Virus record (IMG/VR): IMGVR_UViG_3300020198_000120 | Location: 1 to 21,565 of that record | Direction: 5' to 3' (one strand) | Length of the DNA stretch: 21,565 nucleotides | Source of the DNA: a virus | Notes under the pieces: generated by a model | Told to the model about the DNA's origin: nothing | The model's input: only the letters and a program-made list of their open reading frames with translations | Database searches by the model: none | Position numbers and translations under genes: made by a program | Shown here: piece by piece, positions 35-5,464 of the stretch | Layout: every line of letters starts with the position of its first letter | Numbering within the stretch: position 1 is the stretch's first letter

Positions 35-292
35 TCACTTTCCCATGTGCTTTCCGATATCCGGCCAGAACCAGGCGACAGCGGCGGTCCCGACGATGCC
101 GACTACCCACCAGAATATTTTCTCGCCGCCCCGCCCCGCGGCCTCGCGCAGCCGGCGCAAGAATTTCATGTCCTCACGAACAAGCGCCCTCTCCTCCGCT
201 GACCGGCAATCGATGCCGAACGTCATCTCGAATTTTTCGGCCATCGCCTCGCGAACGGCGTCCTTAACATCTTCCTTCGTCAGCTCGGGCAT
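35..292 (-). CDS. Small phage membrane protein, charged helix plus one C-terminal TM segment
   Basis: 85 residues from the ATG at 292. An in-frame TTG at 316 is possible but would overlap the upstream stop. Residues 1-50 are highly charged and helical (EDVKDAVREAMAEKFE, then REDMKFLRRLRE). Residues 59-76 form one Trp-rich hydrophobic segment (FWWVVGIVGTAAVAWFW). This layout, a charged N-terminal helix with a terminal membrane anchor, is common among small proteins at the end of phage lysis regions (DUF6127-like, from memory). The gene starts 5 bases after the o-spanin stop. A role as holin, antiholin or spanin accessory is possible but unproven. Confidence 0.7.
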   Translation of the reverse strand: MPELTKEDVKDAVREAMAEKFEMTFGIDCRSAEERALVREDMKFLRRLREAAGRGGEKIFWWVVGIVGTAAVAWFWPDIGKHMGK

Positions 293-297
293 TGGCG

Positions 298-534
298 TTA
301 TTTCCCCCACCCGCAAATCTTTCCGACGGCGTTATGCTCTTTCACCTGGGCGATTGTCTTTGGACTGTCTTTGACGCTCCAATAGATCGGCTTCGCGGCG
401 TCACAGAAGGCGAGCGTATCAGTTGTCGCCATCGTCCTTACGTCGGAAGCCGTCATCATCAAGCAGCCCCCCAGAGGCGCGCTCAACGTCAGCGCGAGCA
501 TCTTCACGAGCCTTGTTCGCTTTATTGAGCGCAC
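298..534 (-). CDS. Rz1-like outer-membrane spanin lipoprotein (o-spanin candidate)
   Basis: 78 residues if started at the GTG at 534, which has a GGAGGG ribosome binding site 8 bases upstream. Residues 1-11 are basic (RSIKRTRLVK), followed by a short hydrophobic core and a lipobox ending LGGC at Cys24, so the mature protein should be a lipoprotein. The C-terminal part (FCDAAKPIYWSVKD, then TIAQVKEHNAVGK) resembles a conserved phage small protein next to Rz-like genes. Its 5' part lies inside the i-spanin gene in another frame (overlap 419-534), the classic Rz/Rz1 overlap. An alternative start is the ATG at 501, which would shorten the signal. Together with the i-spanin it would disrupt the outer membrane at lysis. 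Confidence 0.72.
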   Translation of the reverse strand: MRSIKRTRLVKMLALTLSAPLGGCLMMTASDVRTMATTDTLAFCDAAKPIYWSVKDSPKTIAQVKEHNAVGKICGWGK

Positions 535-679
535 GGAGTCGTCCCTCCAAGTCGTCAACCTTCTGCTTCTGACCGCCGAGGGCGATCAGAAGCGCGTCTT
601 TCTGCTGGCGCATCCATTCCGAAAGGACTTTGAATGCGCCAGCGATGGCCGATATGATGGCCGTCACGATGCTGAGCAT
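419..679 (-). CDS. Rz-like inner-membrane spanin subunit (i-spanin candidate)
   Basis: 86 residues from the ATG at 679, which overlaps the upstream TAA by one base (TAATG). An N-terminal hydrophobic stretch (LSIVTAIISAIAGAF) is followed by a charged helix with coiled-coil character (QKQKVDDLEGRLRALNKANK) and an acidic C-terminus (GLLDDDGFRRKDDGDN). One TM segment, a periplasmic coiled coil and a lipoprotein gene overlapping the 3' end in another frame are the hallmarks of Rz/Rz1 pairs. Sequence identity among i-spanins is low, so the call rests on architecture and context. Confidence 0.68.
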   Translation of the reverse strand: MLSIVTAIISAIAGAFKVLSEWMRQQKDALLIALGGQKQKVDDLEGRLRALNKANKAREDARADVERASGGLLDDDGFRRKDDGDN

Positions 680-846
680 TATTTCGTGCCGCCGGTGACG
701 TTGAAGTCCTTCGCGGCGACCAAGCCGATGCCCACAAGCGCCGTCTGGAGATCGGCGAAATTGAGCGTCTTGGTCGTCCACGCATTCCAAAGAACGGTGA
801 CGAGAGCGAGAACTCCGGGGATAGTGGTCATCCAATTTTTCATCAT
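679..846 (-). CDS. Holin-like small phage membrane protein
   Basis: 55 residues from the first of two ATGs (846), behind an AGGAG ribosome binding site with 6 bases of spacing. The sequence has a KNWMTTIPGVLALVTVLW hydrophobic segment and ends AAKDFNVTGGTK. From memory, that C-terminal motif is widespread in small phage proteins beside endolysin and spanin genes. Two weak hydrophobic stretches (about residues 9-22 and 36-45) are compatible with a small class II-type holin, but topology is uncertain. It is translationally coupled to the i-spanin through TAATG. It was below the length usually called automatically. Confidence 0.65.
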   Translation of the reverse strand: MMKNWMTTIPGVLALVTVLWNAWTTKTLNFADLQTALVGIGLVAAKDFNVTGGTK

Positions 847-886: not shown

Positions 887-1057
887 TTACCTATAGCGCG
901 CCCCGTTTTGCAGACATGCCATTCCCCGGCACGATGGACGCGCGCCGATGACCCGTTGGATGGGGATAAGCGTCCAATGCTGGCGAGGCGCGGCGTAACG
1001 CTGTGCGGCCTGCGCGGGCGCGGCGAGCATGGCGAGGCAGAGCAGCGCGCGGATCAT
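887..1057 (-). CDS. Small secreted or periplasmic protein with signal peptide
   Basis: 56 residues from the ATG at 1057, which overlaps the upstream TGA as ATGA. Residues 1-18 form a textbook Sec signal peptide: M-I-R, a hydrophobic core (ALLCLAMLAAP) and an AQA-A cleavage site. The mature part is short and basic, with two cysteines six residues apart (CRGMAC) that could form a disulfide, and ends GARYR. No family recognised. Its place among the membrane micro-genes next to the endolysin suggests a periplasmic role in lysis or superinfection control; this is inference only. Confidence 0.6.
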   Translation of the reverse strand: MIRALLCLAMLAAPAQAAQRYAAPRQHWTLIPIQRVIGARPSCRGMACLQNGARYR

Positions 1058-1140
1058 TCGTCCTCGCTGATGTCGGCCAAAAAGAACACGGCGACCACGC
1101 CGATAAGGACGACAAGGCCGACAAATCCCCAAACTCCCAT
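1054..1140 (-). CDS. 28-residue single-pass membrane microprotein
   Basis: ATG at 1140 behind a strong GGAGG ribosome binding site with 5 bases of spacing. The peptide is almost entirely a TM helix (GFVGLVVLIGVVAVFFLA) followed by an acidic tail (DISEDE). Its stop overlaps the start of the secreted protein as ATGA. The strong ribosome binding site and coupling at both ends support translation. No family recognised; the size and shape resemble phage lysis peptides. Confidence 0.6.
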   Translation of the reverse strand: MGVWGFVGLVVLIGVVAVFFLADISEDE

Positions 1141-1151
1141 GGCAACCTCCG

Positions 1152-1229
1152 TTAATCGTCGAGCACCCATCCGGGGATGGAGCCGATGATGTGCAGCGCG
1201 AACGCGATGTAAGCGGCTAATTCCAGCAT
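1152..1229 (-). CDS. 25-residue hydrophobic microprotein
   Basis: ATG at 1229 with GGAGG 5 bases upstream, lying inside the end of the preceding gene in another frame. The peptide (LELAAYIAFALHIIGSIPGW then VLDD) is hydrophobic and helical with an acidic C-terminus. It ends 11 bases before the next micro-gene, and its 3' end lies just ahead of that gene's ribosome binding site. Function unknown; it may serve mainly to couple translation, or be a membrane peptide in its own right. Confidence 0.45.
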   Translation of the reverse strand: MLELAAYIAFALHIIGSIPGWVLDD

Positions 1230-1381
1230 CCGAGCCTCCGAAGCAGACACTCACCAAGATTGGTGAGAAAAATGATGGCCCAGCAGGCGATCGCCAGCAG
1301 CGCAAGGCCGAACATGACGGCGGGAACGGCGACGATGAGCAGGACCGCGCCGAACTCAGGATCGTCTGGGGGCTGAATCAC
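1217..1381 (-). CDS. 54-residue membrane protein, GTG start
   Basis: GTG at 1381 overlaps the upstream TGA as GTGA. A short acidic N-terminus (QPPDDPEFG) precedes about 30 hydrophobic residues (AVLLIVAVPAVMFGLALLAI then CWAIIFL), long enough for one long TM helix or a tight helical hairpin. The C-terminus is basic with Cys (CLLRRLGCWN). The lysis position and hydrophobicity suggest a holin or pinholin candidate. No family is recognised. Confidence 0.55.
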   Translation of the reverse strand: MIQPPDDPEFGAVLLIVAVPAVMFGLALLAIACWAIIFLTNLGECLLRRLGCWN

Positions 1382-1482
1382 CGGCGCAGACGCTCAACGA
1401 TGGCGCTGATGGCGCCGACCAAGCAGCCCAGCGGCGCGCCAAGCGCGAGGGCCAGCCCGTCAGAGAGGGCGCGACGGATCAT
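1378..1482 (-). CDS. 34-residue membrane microprotein coupled to the endolysin
   Basis: ATG at 1482 overlaps the endolysin stop as ATGA, and its own stop overlaps the next start as GTGA. The sequence is amphipathic to hydrophobic: a basic start (MIRRALSD), a small-residue hydrophobic core (GLALALGAPLGCLVGAISAI) and a basic end (VERLRR). It resembles a single-TM holin or pinholin with positive charge at both ends, but no family is recognised. Confidence 0.58.
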   Translation of the reverse strand: MIRRALSDGLALALGAPLGCLVGAISAIVERLRR

Positions 1483-2093
1483 TTGCGGCCCAAGACGCGC
1501 GACTGATAGGAGGCCATCGGCCATGCCGGTCCTGGATCGCGCTTGCGGCGGGGCGCAATGTCGTAGTGGCCGGCGATATCCTTGATCCCATAGGCGGCGC
1601 ATACGGCCTTGGCGATTTCAGCGGAGGCGTCGACCTGAGCCTGCGGATAGATTTGCCAGAACGGCGTTTTCTCGCCGTTCTGATGATGTGCGCGGACGCA
1701 ATCGCTGGGCGGCATGACCTTTGACGGCGCCACTTCGGAGATGAGTTTGCCGTCGCCGCGCTCAAGGACTGGGCCACAGTTCACATGCTCGAAACCGATC
1801 GAGAAGCCGTTGCACATCTTGCGGCCTTTCCAGGATGACTGGCCGGCATGCCACGTCTTGATGTTGAACGGCGCGAGTTGCGTGACCGAACCGTCCCGGT
1901 CGATAACGAGATGCGCGGACGCCTGGACGCTCTTGTTGATGAGAGTGGAGATCGCGCTCTGCGCCGTAAATCCGGCCGTGTAATGGATCACAAGCAGGCT
2001 CGGCGTGATGACTCCGCCGCGATTCGGCGTCGGCTTCTGAGAGACAGGCTTGCCGTCATTGTAGAGGATGTGATCAACGACGGTGAAGGCCAT
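1479..2093 (-). CDS. N-acetylmuramoyl-L-alanine amidase endolysin (Amidase_2 fold)
   Basis: 204 residues from the ATG at 2093, chosen because an AAGGGAG ribosome binding site lies 8-9 bases upstream; the in-frame ATG at 2138 overlaps the preceding ORF and lacks one. Motifs of zinc amidases (Amidase_2/AmpD type) are present. LLVIHYTAG carries His37, IGFEHVNCG carries Glu102, and GHYDIAPRRKRDPGP carries His176 and Asp186, which fit the zinc site. SAHLVIDRDGSVTQLAP is the usual substrate-groove segment. It cleaves the amide bond between MurNAc and L-alanine in peptidoglycan at the end of infection. There is no signal peptide, so a holin is expected to release it. The flanking membrane micro-genes are candidates. 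Confidence 0.95.
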   Translation of the reverse strand: MAFTVVDHILYNDGKPVSQKPTPNRGGVITPSLLVIHYTAGFTAQSAISTLINKSVQASAHLVIDRDGSVTQLAPFNIKTWHAGQSSWKGRKMCNGFSIGFEHVNCGPVLERGDGKLISEVAPSKVMPPSDCVRAHHQNGEKTPFWQIYPQAQVDASAEIAKAVCAAYGIKDIAGHYDIAPRRKRDPGPAWPMASYQSRVLGRK

Positions 2094-2107
2094 TAGCGCT
2101 TCTCCCT

Positions 2108-2227
2108 TCAATAAGCCGGCGTCTTCTCGACGCGGCATTCAGCGATGAGCGTTGGCGTCTCGCGGCGGACGAGCCATGCGTTGATGATGTAGTTTTTGAC
2201 CTCTGCTTGGGTTATGGCTCCGCTCAG
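2108..2227 (-). CDS. Possible 39-residue protein with non-ATG start
   Basis: An open frame (AITQAEVKNYIINAWLVRRE then TPTLIAECRVEKTPAY) fills the gap before the endolysin and looks protein-like, but has no ATG, GTG or TTG near its 5' end. A CTG at 2227 would overlap the upstream TGA (CTGA), mimicking the ATGA junctions around it; no clear ribosome binding site precedes it. The stop at 2108 leaves 14 bases to the endolysin ATG. It is hydrophilic, unlike its neighbours. Function unknown. Confidence 0.35.
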   Translation of the reverse strand: MSGAITQAEVKNYIINAWLVRRETPTLIAECRVEKTPAY

Positions 2228-2313
2228 CGATTGTCGCGAACCCAGACGCTTCCAGCGCCGACGCCCAGCCCGAGTATTACGGTCGCGAACAATTGAAAAA
2301 GGCCCATGTCCAT
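2224..2313 (-). CDS. 29-residue single-pass membrane microprotein
   Basis: ATG at 2313 lies 2 bases after the TGA of the upstream micro-gene. The peptide has one hydrophobic helix (GLFQLFATVILGLGVGAGSV) and a basic tail (WVRDNR). The ribosome binding site would be the GGGAGG in the end of the upstream gene. No family recognised. Confidence 0.5.
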   Translation of the reverse strand: MDMGLFQLFATVILGLGVGAGSVWVRDNR

Positions 2314-2315
2314 TT

Positions 2316-2438
2316 TCAGCCTCCCATCTGGGAATAGAGCGCCTTGCCTGCGAGCCACGCATACTTGAGGATAAACAGGAAGATGACGGCGAGAAGCAAC
2401 GCCTTGCCATGCCGTTCTATATCCGGCGGGAACATCAT
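2316..2438 (-). CDS. 40-residue single-pass membrane microprotein
   Basis: ATG at 2438 overlaps the preceding TGA as ATGA; the second codon is also ATG. A polar N-terminus (FPPDIERHGK) precedes one strong TM helix (ALLLAVIFLFILKYAWLAG), with a short tail ending SQMGG. A GAGGCGG element 3-4 bases upstream of the start could serve as ribosome binding site. No family recognised. Confidence 0.55.
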   Translation of the reverse strand: MMFPPDIERHGKALLLAVIFLFILKYAWLAGKALYSQMGG

Positions 2439-2524
2439 TTCATCCGCCTCAACTGAATGAGAAAGCGCGCGCCGGTCAGCACAACCGCGACCCAAAACCG
2501 AGCCATGTAGATCGCGGCGCGCAT
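2435..2524 (-). CDS. 29-residue basic membrane microprotein
   Basis: ATG at 2524 immediately abuts the upstream TAG (TAGATG). The peptide (RAAIYMARFWVAVVLTGARF then LIQLRRMK) has a short hydrophobic core between arginines and a strongly basic C-terminus, suggesting a membrane-associated helix. Its stop overlaps the next start as ATGA. No clear ribosome binding site beyond coupling. Confidence 0.45.
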   Translation of the reverse strand: MRAAIYMARFWVAVVLTGARFLIQLRRMK

Positions 2525-2677
2525 CTATCTCAGCCAGTCAGCGATCGTCGCAAAAGCGAGCATGACGACGATCGCCAGTATGGCGCCGATGATGATGCGC
2601 GCTTCAGGATCACGTGACGCCTTACGCGGATGGCTCGCTTGCGGGCTCCGACGCCGGGGCGGCGGGGGCGGGAGCAA
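2525..2677 (-). CDS. Probable small membrane protein, start uncertain
   Basis: The reading frame ends in a clear TM segment (ARIIIGAILAIVVMLAFATI, then ADWLR) right before the next micro-gene. The only usual start in the open stretch is a TTG at 2677, inside the previous gene, which would add a proline and arginine-rich leader encoded by the alternative frame of that gene's Pro/Ala tail. There is no ribosome binding site there. Either a rare start downstream is used or the gene is decayed. The hydrophobic segment is coding-like, but the coordinates are only an upper limit. Confidence 0.35.
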   Translation of the reverse strand: MLPPPPPRRRSPQASHPRKASRDPEARIIIGAILAIVVMLAFATIADWLR

Positions 2678-2876
2678 CGGCGCTGCGAAAGGAGTCGAAC
2701 CACACTCTCACCTCCGCGAAGGCCGTGGCGGAGTCGGTCGACGAATGCAGCGCGTCGAGCTGAGCTTTCAGCGACGCGATCTCGCCGTCCTTGGCGGCGC
2801 CGGCGTCATGCATGTTGACCAGCATCTGTCGCATTTCGCGCAGAAGATCGAGCGCGGCGTTTTCTGCCTCGGTCAT
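2622..2876 (-). CDS. Small helical protein with Pro/Ala tail, possible tail or lysis accessory
   Basis: 84 residues from the ATG at 2876, preceded by AAGGA with 9 bases of spacing. Residues 1-55 are a charged helix with coiled-coil periodicity (ALDLLREMRQMLVNMHDAGA, then GEIASLKAQLDALHS). The end is low complexity (APAPAAPASEPASEPS). No TM segment or signal peptide. No family recognised. It sits between the last fibre-region gene and the membrane micro-genes. Confidence 0.6.
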   Translation of the reverse strand: MTEAENAALDLLREMRQMLVNMHDAGAAKDGEIASLKAQLDALHSSTDSATAFAEVRVWFDSFRSAVAPAPAAPASEPASEPSA

Positions 2877-2926
2877 CGGTTCGGTCCTTTTGCGGATGGT
2901 GCCGGAAGCCGTCCGGCGGCGGATCG

Positions 2927-2998
2927 TCAGCGCGTCTTCGTCGCGCCATAAAGAAAGACCCACGCAATCATGCCCGCGAGAGACCAGATCAGAATCAT
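2927..2998 (-). CDS. 23-residue membrane microprotein
   Basis: ATG at 2998 overlaps the upstream TGA as ATGA. The peptide is one hydrophobic Trp-rich helix (ILIWSLAGMIAWVFLYG) with a basic tail (ATKTR), so positive-inside topology would put the C-terminus in the cytoplasm. No own ribosome binding site is evident; expression would rely on coupling. Very short, so chance cannot be excluded, but it matches the pattern of the genes that follow. Confidence 0.45.
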   Translation of the reverse strand: MILIWSLAGMIAWVFLYGATKTR

Positions 2999-3558
2999 GC
3001 GAGCATCTTGCCGAGACTGATCGCCGCGTTGATGTCTTCCTGCGTCTTGCCGAGGCTGATCGCCGCATTGATCAGCATCGCGTTGTTCGCGTGGATCATA
3101 GTGGCGCGCTCCCACCAGTCGCGCACATCCTGCGCCGCCGTCGCCACATAGGCTTCGACCGCTTCACGCAGGCCGAGCTGATTGAGCGCCAGGCGGAACT
3201 GCAGGTCCGTGCAGGACAGCACCGGGTCGAGCGGCGGATTCTGCAGCGCGTCGATTTCGGCGTTGAGCGTCGCGATCTGCGCGTTGAGCGCGGCGAGCTG
3301 CGTCTCCGCCTGCTCAAGCGCCGTCGCCTTTTCCTCGATCGAGGCGTGCGCCGCAGCCAATTCGGCCATAAGAGCGCCTTGCGTCGGCAGCACGCTCGCC
3401 AGCGCGACGCTATCGAGCGGCTCGGCGGCCAGCTGTCGCGTGTAGACGATTTCGCCGTCGACGACCACCTGGTCGATCCGCTCCTGGTGCGCGCCCTTGA
3501 GCGAGCCATCCTGATTTAGCACGATCAAGACGCGTTCCGGATATGTGACTCGTTGCAT
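2995..3558 (-). CDS. Coiled-coil protein following the tail fibre (fibre accessory or hypothetical)
   Basis: 187 residues from the ATG at 3558, which has GAGGTGA with about 8 bases of spacing; the longer in-frame ORF to 3669 overlaps the fibre gene and has no ribosome binding site. Residues 1-60 look like a small beta-rich domain (RVLIVLNQDGSLKGAHQE, QVVVDGEIVYTRQ). Residues 65-105 are a heptad-rich coiled coil (EKATALEQAETQLAALNAQI). The C-terminus ends in a short duplicated helix (INAAISLGK twice). Position right after the fibre genes suggests a fibre-associated or chaperone role, not proven. Confidence 0.7.
   Translation of the reverse strand: MQRVTYPERVLIVLNQDGSLKGAHQERIDQVVVDGEIVYTRQLAAEPLDSVALASVLPTQGALMAELAAAHASIEEKATALEQAETQLAALNAQIATLNAEIDALQNPPLDPVLSCTDLQFRLALNQLGLREAVEAYVATAAQDVRDWWERATMIHANNAMLINAAISLGKTQEDINAAISLGKMLA
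3007..3072 (-). repeat. Two-copy in-frame repeat in the 3' end of the coiled-coil gene
   Basis: Two 27-base copies (3007-3033 and 3046-3072) differ at two positions and are spaced by a 39-base (13-codon) period. They encode INAAISLGK twice. The period keeps the frame, consistent with a recent tandem duplication. Confidence 0.8.
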
Positions 3559-3629: not shown

Positions 3630-5090
3630 TCAGGCAGAAATAATCGCGAGATCGGTGCAGCGACGCCAATTAGTCCCATCGGCAAATGCTATAACCCCTC
3701 CGCCAACCTCATTGGAAACATAAATCTGTTGACCTGCTTTTGCCGCTGCTGAAGGAACGGTAGCGACCGTGTAGGATTTGACGCAGATCGGACCATCGAC
3801 ATCGAGTATCACCGCTGGCGTCGCCGTACCGATGCCGACCTTGCCTGCAAAATAGTTGTACGCATTGGCGTCTGACGCATAAAAACTGTAGGGCGTGTTC
3901 GTCTGCGTACCCGTGGTGATGTCGCCGACGTACACGCCATAGGTGTTGGTGATCGTGCCGGTGTTTGCAAGCGATGGGATGTTGAGGCCGGCTGCATTCG
4001 TGATCGTGCCGCTGCTCGTGTTGCGCAACCACGTGCGGATGCCGTCGAATGCAGTGATCGTTCCCGTTCCTCGATGACGCGCGACGACGTACTGGCCCAC
4101 AAGTCCTCTGTCTGCCGCGGTGAAGTTGGCGGTATTGCCGCTTGTCGTATCCCCCCAAGAAATCGCGCCGAAGTGTTCTCCCGCCGTGTCTGCGCTCGGG
4201 TTGAAGGATCCAATCGTATAGAGACATGATGCGCCGGAGGTGCCCGGATCGATCGTCTTCGAAATCATTGCGACGGGATTGAAGGCAGAGCTCCCGCTGC
4301 CGACAGCGAGGAGTTGCCAATCCTTGTCGTCAAACGTGCTGGTGCCGATGCCGAGACGCCCATTCAAATTATCCCAAAACAAGCCGTCCGAGCCGGCAAA
4401 GTTCACCCCGCTCTTGAATTGCACATTGCCGTCCGACCCGCCTGGAGAAGAGGGTGCACCAACCAGCGATTTTGCTGCGGGCCACGCCCCTCCAGCTTTC
4501 GGGCCATAGAGATTTCCAGCGCTGGAATCGATGGCGAAGTCGCCATCAACGCCTGCTCCGGACGAAGGCGCGCCTGATGTTGAAAGGATCGTGTTGACCG
4601 CGATGACCCACGCTCCGGCGACGCGAGCCTTCAGCCGCATTACAGCGCTGGAAAAATACAGCGCTCCATCGACGAGCGGATTGCCGGCCCCGTCTTGCGT
4701 CGGGTCGGCCGCAGAAACGCCGAGCCATTTCGCAAGCAGGCTTGTGAGAGAGGACAAGGCTCCGGAAGCGCTCGACGCCGCGCCTGACGCGCTGCCTGAG
4801 GCCGACGTTGCGCTCGCCGCCGCGCTGGACGCGCTGCCTGAGGCCGACGTTGCGCTCACTGCCGCGCCTGACGCGCTGCCTGAGGCCGACGTTGCGCTCG
4901 CTTCCGCGCTGGACGCGCTGCCTGAGGCCGACGTTGCGCTCGCTGCCGATGAGACTTTATCCGCCGCAACCGCAATGCGGTCCGCTGCGGTGGCCGTCGC
5001 GGCGTCCTGCGCCGCAGTGATTGCGTCTGCGAGAGAGACAGGGACAGGAGCAAGCTCGGCTTCAGCGTTGATATTAAGTTTCACGCCCAT
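3630..5090 (-). CDS. Tail fibre protein with Ala/Ser repeat stalk
   Basis: 486 residues from the ATG at 5090, which overlaps the upstream TAA (TAATG); the longer frame to 5183 is antisense-like overlap without support. After a short N-terminal segment (about 1-35), residues 40-115 are a low-complexity Ala/Ser/Gly stalk made from a 42-bp DNA repeat. The C-terminal two thirds is rich in Gly, Thr, Asn and Ser with typical fibre patterns: LGIGTSTFD and KVGIGTATPAVILDVDG, a form common in trimeric fibre head domains, then a terminal module YTVATVPSAAAKAGQQIYVS and AFADGTNWRRCTD found at the ends of many phage fibres. It probably forms a trimer that binds the host surface. Confidence 0.88.
   Translation of the reverse strand: MGVKLNINAEAELAPVPVSLADAITAAQDAATATAADRIAVAADKVSSAASATSASGSASSAEASATSASGSASGAAVSATSASGSASSAAASATSASGSASGAASSASGALSSLTSLLAKWLGVSAADPTQDGAGNPLVDGALYFSSAVMRLKARVAGAWVIAVNTILSTSGAPSSGAGVDGDFAIDSSAGNLYGPKAGGAWPAAKSLVGAPSSPGGSDGNVQFKSGVNFAGSDGLFWDNLNGRLGIGTSTFDDKDWQLLAVGSGSSAFNPVAMISKTIDPGTSGASCLYTIGSFNPSADTAGEHFGAISWGDTTSGNTANFTAADRGLVGQYVVARHRGTGTITAFDGIRTWLRNTSSGTITNAAGLNIPSLANTGTITNTYGVYVGDITTGTQTNTPYSFYASDANAYNYFAGKVGIGTATPAVILDVDGPICVKSYTVATVPSAAAKAGQQIYVSNEVGGGVIAFADGTNWRRCTDLAIISA
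4786..4953 (-). repeat. 42-bp tandem repeat, four copies, inside the fibre stalk
   Basis: Four consecutive 42-base units begin at 4786, 4828, 4870 and 4912. Each starts gacgcgctgcctgaggccga on the plus strand, and they differ at only a few positions, mainly at the end of each unit. In protein terms each unit is 14 residues of the type SATSASGSASxAxx. The unit is a multiple of three, so copy number can change without breaking the frame. Confidence 0.95.
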
Positions 5091-5464
5091 TAGCGGATCA
5101 CTCCATTCAGCACAGGGAAAGCCCCAACGCCAATCCCGCGAAGATCGGTCGGAGCCGCCGCGATATAAAAGCCGACTTCCCAATAGAAGGTGCCGCCATT
5201 GGGGAACGCCGACAATCCTGCGGCTGAAGGTGAATTAAACGTCAGCACTTTAGACGTGTTGTTGTAAGCAATGGAATTCGTCGGCGTCACTAAAGAGCCG
5301 CCCGTCTTCCACTCAAAAATGACCGTGCTCGATCCTGGCGACGCGCGCACCTGCGCAAGAAATGACGCCGTCGTCAGATTGTAAACCGCCGCGACATTGG
5401 TCAGGTCTATGGACGCCGACCAATGCTCCGTATTGATGAAATTTCCAAGATCGATCGCGGCCAT
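5090..5464 (-). CDS. Upper-baseplate or fibre-adaptor beta-sandwich protein
   Basis: 124 residues from the ATG at 5464 (TTGAGG about 8 bases upstream); the alternative start at 5491 overlaps the preceding mini-ORF. The pattern SIDLTNVAAVYNLTTASFLA followed by QVRASPGSSTVIFEWKTGG, then a C-terminal FYWEVGFYI and GIGVGAFPVLNGVIR, matches small beta-sandwich domains of phage baseplate-upper or fibre-attachment proteins (BppU N-terminal type, by resemblance). It lies between two fibre genes and is coupled to the next by TAATG, so it may link the fibre to the tail tip. Confidence 0.65.
   Translation of the reverse strand: MAAIDLGNFINTEHWSASIDLTNVAAVYNLTTASFLAQVRASPGSSTVIFEWKTGGSLVTPTNSIAYNNTSKVLTFNSPSAAGLSAFPNGGTFYWEVGFYIAAAPTDLRGIGVGAFPVLNGVIR

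Follow-up and report, generated by a model that had tools for sequence, protein, structure and literature searches.

Why should a phage carry some ten hydrophobic reading frames of only 23 to 56 codons around its endolysin gene? The question is posed by the minus strand between positions 2998 and 887 of the IMG/VR virus record IMGVR_UViG_3300020198_000120, which was analyzed over a stretch of 21,565 nucleotides (the window). We found that the half of this cassette upstream of the endolysin is real and that the downstream half is plausible. The function that we infer for the whole, with about an even chance of being right, is to tune lysis, as a modular run of accessory membrane microproteins beside a conventional lysis set. 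The window is the entire contig C60 of a draft genome, G000 (3.95 Mb, 295 contigs), whose relatives in named collections belong to Methylocystis; because G000 is a draft with an estimated contamination of 8.6%, this host link is likely rather than certain. On the minus strand, tail genes are followed by lysis genes, and this part is best read as the lysis region of a prophage that resembles a siphovirus and is integrated in a Methylocystis-type, methane-eating host.

A tiled run of small membrane frames flanks the endolysin

Ten hydrophobic frames (m1, m3 to m6, and m8 to m12) flank an amidase gene, and the same set includes a soluble protein (m2) and an uncertain soluble frame (m7). The features are as follows, where H is a hydropathy figure and helix calls on the microframes come from hydropathy only.

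2995..3558, minus strand: tail-associated gene before the cassette, from the open reading frame (ORF) list, ending in an ATGA overlap with m1
2927..2998, minus strand: m1, 23-amino-acid single-helix membrane microprotein (H 1.92)
2622..2876, minus strand: m2, 84-amino-acid soluble coiled-coil-like protein with homologs
2525..2677, minus strand: m3, membrane helix (H 2.93), with a TTG start at 2677 or a noncanonical start at about 2600
2435..2524, minus strand: m4, 29-amino-acid basic membrane microprotein with homologs (H 1.57, borderline)
2316..2438, minus strand: m5, 40-amino-acid membrane microprotein with an MMFPPD N terminus and homologs; ATGA overlap with m4
2224..2313, minus strand: m6, 29-amino-acid membrane microprotein (H 1.84) with a GGAGG ribosome site
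2108..2227, minus strand: m7, uncertain 39-codon soluble frame without an ordinary start (ORF only)
1479..2093, minus strand: endolysin, Amidase_2 (PF01510, expect value [E] 3.8e-27)
1378..1482, minus strand: m8, 34-amino-acid membrane microframe (H 2.13); ATGA overlap with the amidase stop
1217..1381, minus strand: m9, 54-amino-acid membrane microframe (H 2.88) with a GTG start; GTGA overlap with m8
1152..1229, minus strand: m10, 25-amino-acid membrane microframe (H 1.64) with GGAGG 5 nucleotides upstream
1054..1140, minus strand: m11, 28-amino-acid membrane microframe (H 2.81) with GGAGGT 4 nucleotides upstream
887..1057, minus strand: m12, 56-amino-acid signal-peptide-like protein with C-x4-C; ATGA overlap with m11

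All of the frames in the original prediction, which had counted about ten very small frames beside the amidase, exist on the minus strand, and the junctions that it described were found as well. Four-nucleotide overlaps join the tail gene to m1, m4 to m5, the amidase to m8, and m11 to m12 (each ATGA) and m8 to m9 (GTGA), while m3 and m4 abut via TAGATG. Strong GGAGG ribosome sites precede not only 1140 (m11) and 1229 (m10), as had been noted, but also 2313 (m6). The best reading is that the microgenes are translated by coupled translation from overlapping genes. By hydropathy, m1, m3, m5, m6, and m8 to m11 have a membrane helix (H 1.6 to 2.9). The statement that most frames are hydrophobic or carry a signal peptide was thus borne out, m12 being signal-peptide-like, with the reservations that m4 is borderline and that m7 is not hydrophobic. 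m7 also has no ATG, GTG, or TTG start of its own, and m3 has no ATG or GTG ahead of its membrane helix, the nearest start being the TTG at 2677, which falls inside m2.

The prediction that chance alone would not give such consecutive, coupled hydrophobic frames was examined with 300 dinucleotide shuffles of both amidase flanks, in which we scored the chain of tiled hydrophobic microframes at a hydropathy of 1.5. The observed chain reached 3 on the upstream side and 5 on the downstream side of the amidase, against shuffle means of 0.16 and 0.30 and a maximum of 2, and none of the 300 shuffles reached the observed value. The same test found no such chain on the opposite strand. A codon score that had the window's large genes as its training set was positive in frame for every microframe except m12, where it was about zero; for some frames it was weakly positive, and it is weak evidence for any one of them.

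The upstream microgenes are conserved in order and under selection

The relatives of the cassette were missed by tblastn alone; m2 led to them first, and then m5. The endolysin was also tried as a guide, and comparison of the microproteins with amidase-bearing Methylocystis loci gave no homologs, so that the cassette is hard to trace through its endolysin gene. m2 has homologs in genomes G022, G006, G029, and G035 (E 4e-19 to 3e-9) and in a viral metagenome contig, L176. In the G022 prophage (L163), the order is m2, m3, m4, an extra 47-amino-acid gene (x), m5, a membrane microgene in the place of m6, and then a lysozyme gene. L176 carries the same series ahead of an M15 peptidase, and in the G035 prophage (L164) m4, x, m5, and the m6 place come before another endolysin, with m2 further down. 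The endolysin class beside the set differs, being Amidase_2 in the window, Phage_lysozyme in L163, and Peptidase_M15_4 in L176. Junction spacings of -1, -4, -4, and +2 to +12 nucleotides are kept across these relatives.

m4 and m5 recur in all three of these other Methylocystis-type prophages or contigs. The identity of m4 is 66% in G035 (E 5.3e-7 when searched with the protein from that genome), 61% in L176, and 43% in L163; in the viral-contig scan, no m4 relative was confirmed by tblastn. m5 matches G022 at 60% over 35 residues (E 1.1e-8), L176 at E 8e-13, and G035 by hidden Markov model (HMM). The m6 place holds a membrane microgene in L163, L176, and L164, the last with the same GGGAGGCTGAAAATG junction, and in the m7 place L163 and L176 carry an unrelated short soluble gene. 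m1 recurs in one relative, L165, where its last 13 codons are 92% identical (E 2.9e-5), with a synonymous proportion of differences (pS) of 0.31 and a nonsynonymous proportion (pN) of 0.03; the L165 gene is truncated at the beginning of its contig and has no stop at the matching place.

The window lacks x. In L164, m4, x, and m5 are joined by two ATGA overlaps versus the single m4/m5 ATGA of the window, as expected from a clean loss or gain of x. This gene belongs to a family of membrane microproteins with a C-terminal GNSGRxKHW-like motif, seen in L163, L164, L176, L098, L086, and L097 and lying in the lysis region in several of these phages.

To examine selection, we pooled m3, m4, x, m5, and m6 (165 codons) in the closest relative pair, L163 and L176. 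The pS was 0.35 and the pN was 0.16, giving a pN/pS of 0.45 (bootstrap 95%, 0.32 to 0.68), whereas the shifted frames gave 1.02 and 1.50. Between the window and its relatives, the 95% range of pN/pS for pooled m3 to m5 was 0.56 to 0.80. Taken singly, m4 and m5 mostly had pN below pS in such comparisons, the exception being m5 against G035, and m2 likewise had pN below pS. Taken together, order, junctions, and substitution patterns show, as far as sequence comparison goes, that the upstream microgenes are real genes in conserved order under purifying selection. At least four genes in the cassette are real and conserved without belonging to a known family, and a search of 50,697 phage records with the microprotein families tested gave no match. 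The upstream microgenes are best read as turning over fast and being exchanged one at a time.

The expression of m3 deserves separate comment. The missing start of m3, together with the joining in L165 of an m2-like N terminus to a membrane helix, led us to consider a +1 frameshift leading from m2 to m3. We regard it as no more than possible because three relatives (L163, L176, and L045) begin m3 with ATG at the equivalent place. The L165 fusion (positions 11-406) is one 131-codon frame ending in a C-terminal membrane helix, and it hints that m2 may act at the membrane in partnership with a helix like m3.

A further microprotein family, MMHPDH, lies near the endolysin in IMG/VR phages and is supported as a family (three seeds chosen by eye; L088 at E 4e-9, L107 at E 0.003 without inclusion). 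A broad HMM grouped m5 with it, but we do not claim this link, for which E was only 0.05 to 0.4; after iteration the model also caught, in L043, a frame adjacent to a malate-dehydrogenase-like gene.

The downstream frames are plausible genes at a variable site

Frames m8 to m12 are plausible from their tiling, ribosome sites, and hydropathy, and they presumably belong to the same system as the upstream set. For m9, there was no credible match in 39 genus genomes or in viral contigs; a match in G026 (E 0.04) was set aside, having no lysis genes around it. The only match of m12 is a 96% copy in the same genome, on contig C193 of G000. We did not use it as evidence of selection, as at the end of C193 the copy is fused to an inverted segment of the window (4995-5156), a rearrangement or misassembly. 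On that contig (L187), positions 4846-5207 hold copies of window 4995-5156 and 863-1066 joined in an order foreign to the window.

At the m12 site, a small lipoprotein to which m12 is not similar by sequence is encoded in about 18 relatives. These proteins have 46 to 66 amino acids and an LTGC lipobox with two further cysteines, and their genes separate endolysin from holin in about 18 viral loci (L076, L077, L087, L105, L115, L119, L124, L135, L139, L141, L147, and others). The family had no convincing PHROGs counterpart and no match in annotated phage records. Another family of membrane microproteins, MCGGVDPRP (31 to 35 amino acids), follows the endolysin in relatives. The occurrence of such families in the same part of the cassette points to the site itself as a home of membrane microgenes.

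A conventional lysis set adjoins the cassette

Directly after m12, at 846-298, lies a conventional lysis set comprising m13 and then the overlapping m14 and m15, with a further gene behind it.

679..846, minus strand: m13, 55-amino-acid holin candidate, conserved beside Rz/Rz1 in dozens of IMG/VR contigs
419..679, minus strand: m14, Rz-like inner-membrane spanin candidate with an N-terminal helix (H 2.07); 56 related ORFs by HMM; phrog_739 only at E 0.033
298..501, minus strand: m15, Rz1-like lipoprotein with an LGGC lipobox, overlapping m14 in another frame; phrog_1275 (Rz-like spanin) at E 6.6e-8
35..292, minus strand: m16, protein with a C-terminal membrane helix; phrog_6420 (function unknown) at E 1.5e-8

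The cassette at 887 to 2998 is thus a real, dense, coupled set, as originally described, but only part of the lysis region, whose genes m13 to m15 lie just outside it and had been missed. m13 is small and lies between endolysin and spanins. AlphaFold2 predicted a two-helix hairpin (helices 5-25 and 30-51) with moderate confidence (predicted local distance difference test score, 72), and by hydropathy the second helix is weakly hydrophobic. Its relatives, up to 82% identical, lie beside relatives of m15, of which a scan of IMG/VR viral contigs found 123. m13 had no PHROGs or NCBIfam family and gave only noise in Pfam. In the sole annotated phage record that contains it, MW202483, it lies unannotated downstream of the lysozyme gene. 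m14 and m15 have the arrangement of a two-component spanin, a lipobox lipoprotein overlapping an Rz-like gene in another frame. The set is therefore a conventional holin candidate with a two-component spanin, and the predicted fold and position make m13 the likely principal holin. A homolog of m16 follows the spanin-like genes of L053.

The amidase, with relatives in 22 of the 101 genomes searched, lacks an N-terminal membrane segment; its best 19-residue hydropathy is 1.13, at residues 34-52. A pinholin working with a signal-anchor-release (SAR) endolysin therefore does not fit. In Methylocystis phages, endolysins of differing classes (Phage_lysozyme, Amidase_2, Peptidase_M15_4, and Glyco_hydro_19) seem to have a C-terminal extension in common, which finishes in a membrane helix and frequently carries an AAGSRT-like motif (L045, L046, L163, L165, L176, L031, and L036). 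This suggests that the endolysins bearing it may be C-terminally anchored; the window amidase is without it. A second related prophage contig of G000 (C79, L047) has a methyltransferase-like gene after the tail fiber, and no lysis genes were seen before that contig ends.

A proposed accessory role in lysis and the competing explanations

The microproteins are encoded on the same strand beside the endolysin, are coupled to late genes, keep this place whatever the endolysin chemistry, and have a separate holin candidate nearby, all of which suggests that they are accessory lysis membrane proteins. Since m13 and the spanins adjoin the cassette, they are probably not the main holin. Lysis would then depend on a conventional set of amidase, two-helix holin m13, Rz-like m14, and Rz1-like m15. 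The accompanying single-helix microproteins, presumably expressed late and inserted in the membrane, would adjust holin triggering or lysis timing, whether by an antiholin-like delay, by help to the holin, or by sensing. Several observations weigh against this explanation. No microprotein matched a named holin, antiholin, or releasin family above noise in the frames scanned against PHROGs, Pfam, and NCBIfam. A search of 17,604 short frames from the fetched loci yielded no relative of m8 to m11. The conservation of m6 is positional only, its sequence not being conserved with the window, and m3 by itself is indistinguishable from neutral (bootstrap, 0.6 to 0.8) and has lost in the window the start used by relatives. 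The interval between tail gene and endolysin also suits unrelated cargo genes.

Cargo genes are often placed between tail and lysis genes, and the chief rival is that the microproteins are morons, cargo peptides that serve superinfection exclusion or alter the envelope and are dispensable for lysis. We hold this to be possible, given the fast one-by-one exchange, the variable number of genes among relatives, and the small lipoproteins in the m12 place. However, the genes are coupled to late genes by ATGA, promoter-like and terminator-like sites are near chance level, and the set always adjoins endolysin, holin, or spanins. Nor did any known defense model match; PADLOC had none for the ten frames scanned, and classical exclusion proteins were not compared one by one. 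That most of the frames are spurious, or remains of decayed genes in GC-rich (guanine- and cytosine-rich) DNA, is unlikely in view of the shuffle test and of the order, junctions, and selection upstream. Such a reading draws on the missing relatives of m8 to m11, the missing ordinary starts of m3 and m7, the null coding score of m12, and the contaminated draft assembly, and it may apply to m7 and part of m8 to m12. The original prediction had held that frames broken in close relatives, or under no purifying selection, would be spurious; the upstream set is intact and selected.

That the microproteins jointly form the principal holin or a pinholin system we consider improbable. Several small membrane proteins do adjoin the endolysin, and phage P1 uses several holin-like proteins with an antiholin (PMC9025707). 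Against this stand the conserved two-helix candidate m13 in the canonical place and the amidase itself, which has no SAR segment and so would not be released by a pinholin. Thus, of the systems first proposed, the pinholin does not fit and a multicomponent holin is unneeded given m13, while a holin- or antiholin-like accessory role is plausible. It is similarly doubtful that many single-helix subunits, made in fixed order and ratio by coupled translation, build one membrane complex that times lysis with m13 and m2. For the preferred account of accessory microproteins, the cassette offers a concrete and testable example of many tiny membrane proteins controlling lysis. Genes of 23 to 45 codons are usually dropped by annotation, as the unannotated m13 relative illustrates, and these conserved, ordered, selected microgenes add unnamed protein families to the lysis regions of phages of Gram-negative hosts.

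Comparison with known lysis systems

Published lysis cassettes of phages of Gram-positive hosts likewise place several unrelated membrane genes of one to four helices beside the endolysin, and these genes are gained or lost singly and rarely common to different phages. They have at most four such genes, whereas here there are about ten of 23 to 56 amino acids, in a Gram-negative host and beside a spanin pair; the authors of that work state that such an organization was undescribed in phages of Gram-negative hosts. Phage P1, which does infect a Gram-negative host, also exceeds one holin and one antiholin, with LydA, LydB, LydC, and LydD (PMC9025707), but its Lyd genes lie in separate operons and its endolysin is of the SAR type. 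No sequence relation of the Lyd proteins to the microproteins was found by library searches, no direct comparison being made. The phage Mu releasin gp25 (DUF2730), 99 amino acids with a single helix, is a small accessory lysis protein encoded near the endolysin, but it acts on SAR endolysins (PMC9239132), and the window amidase has no such segment; no frame scanned against Pfam matched DUF2730. m14 and m15, with an N-terminal helix and a lipoprotein in an overlapping frame, are ordinary members of the Rz/Rz1 spanins and lie outside the microprotein finding. No model in the libraries searched matched the set, and within the open-license literature searched it resembles the known multigene lysis cassettes in kind, with more genes and smaller proteins.

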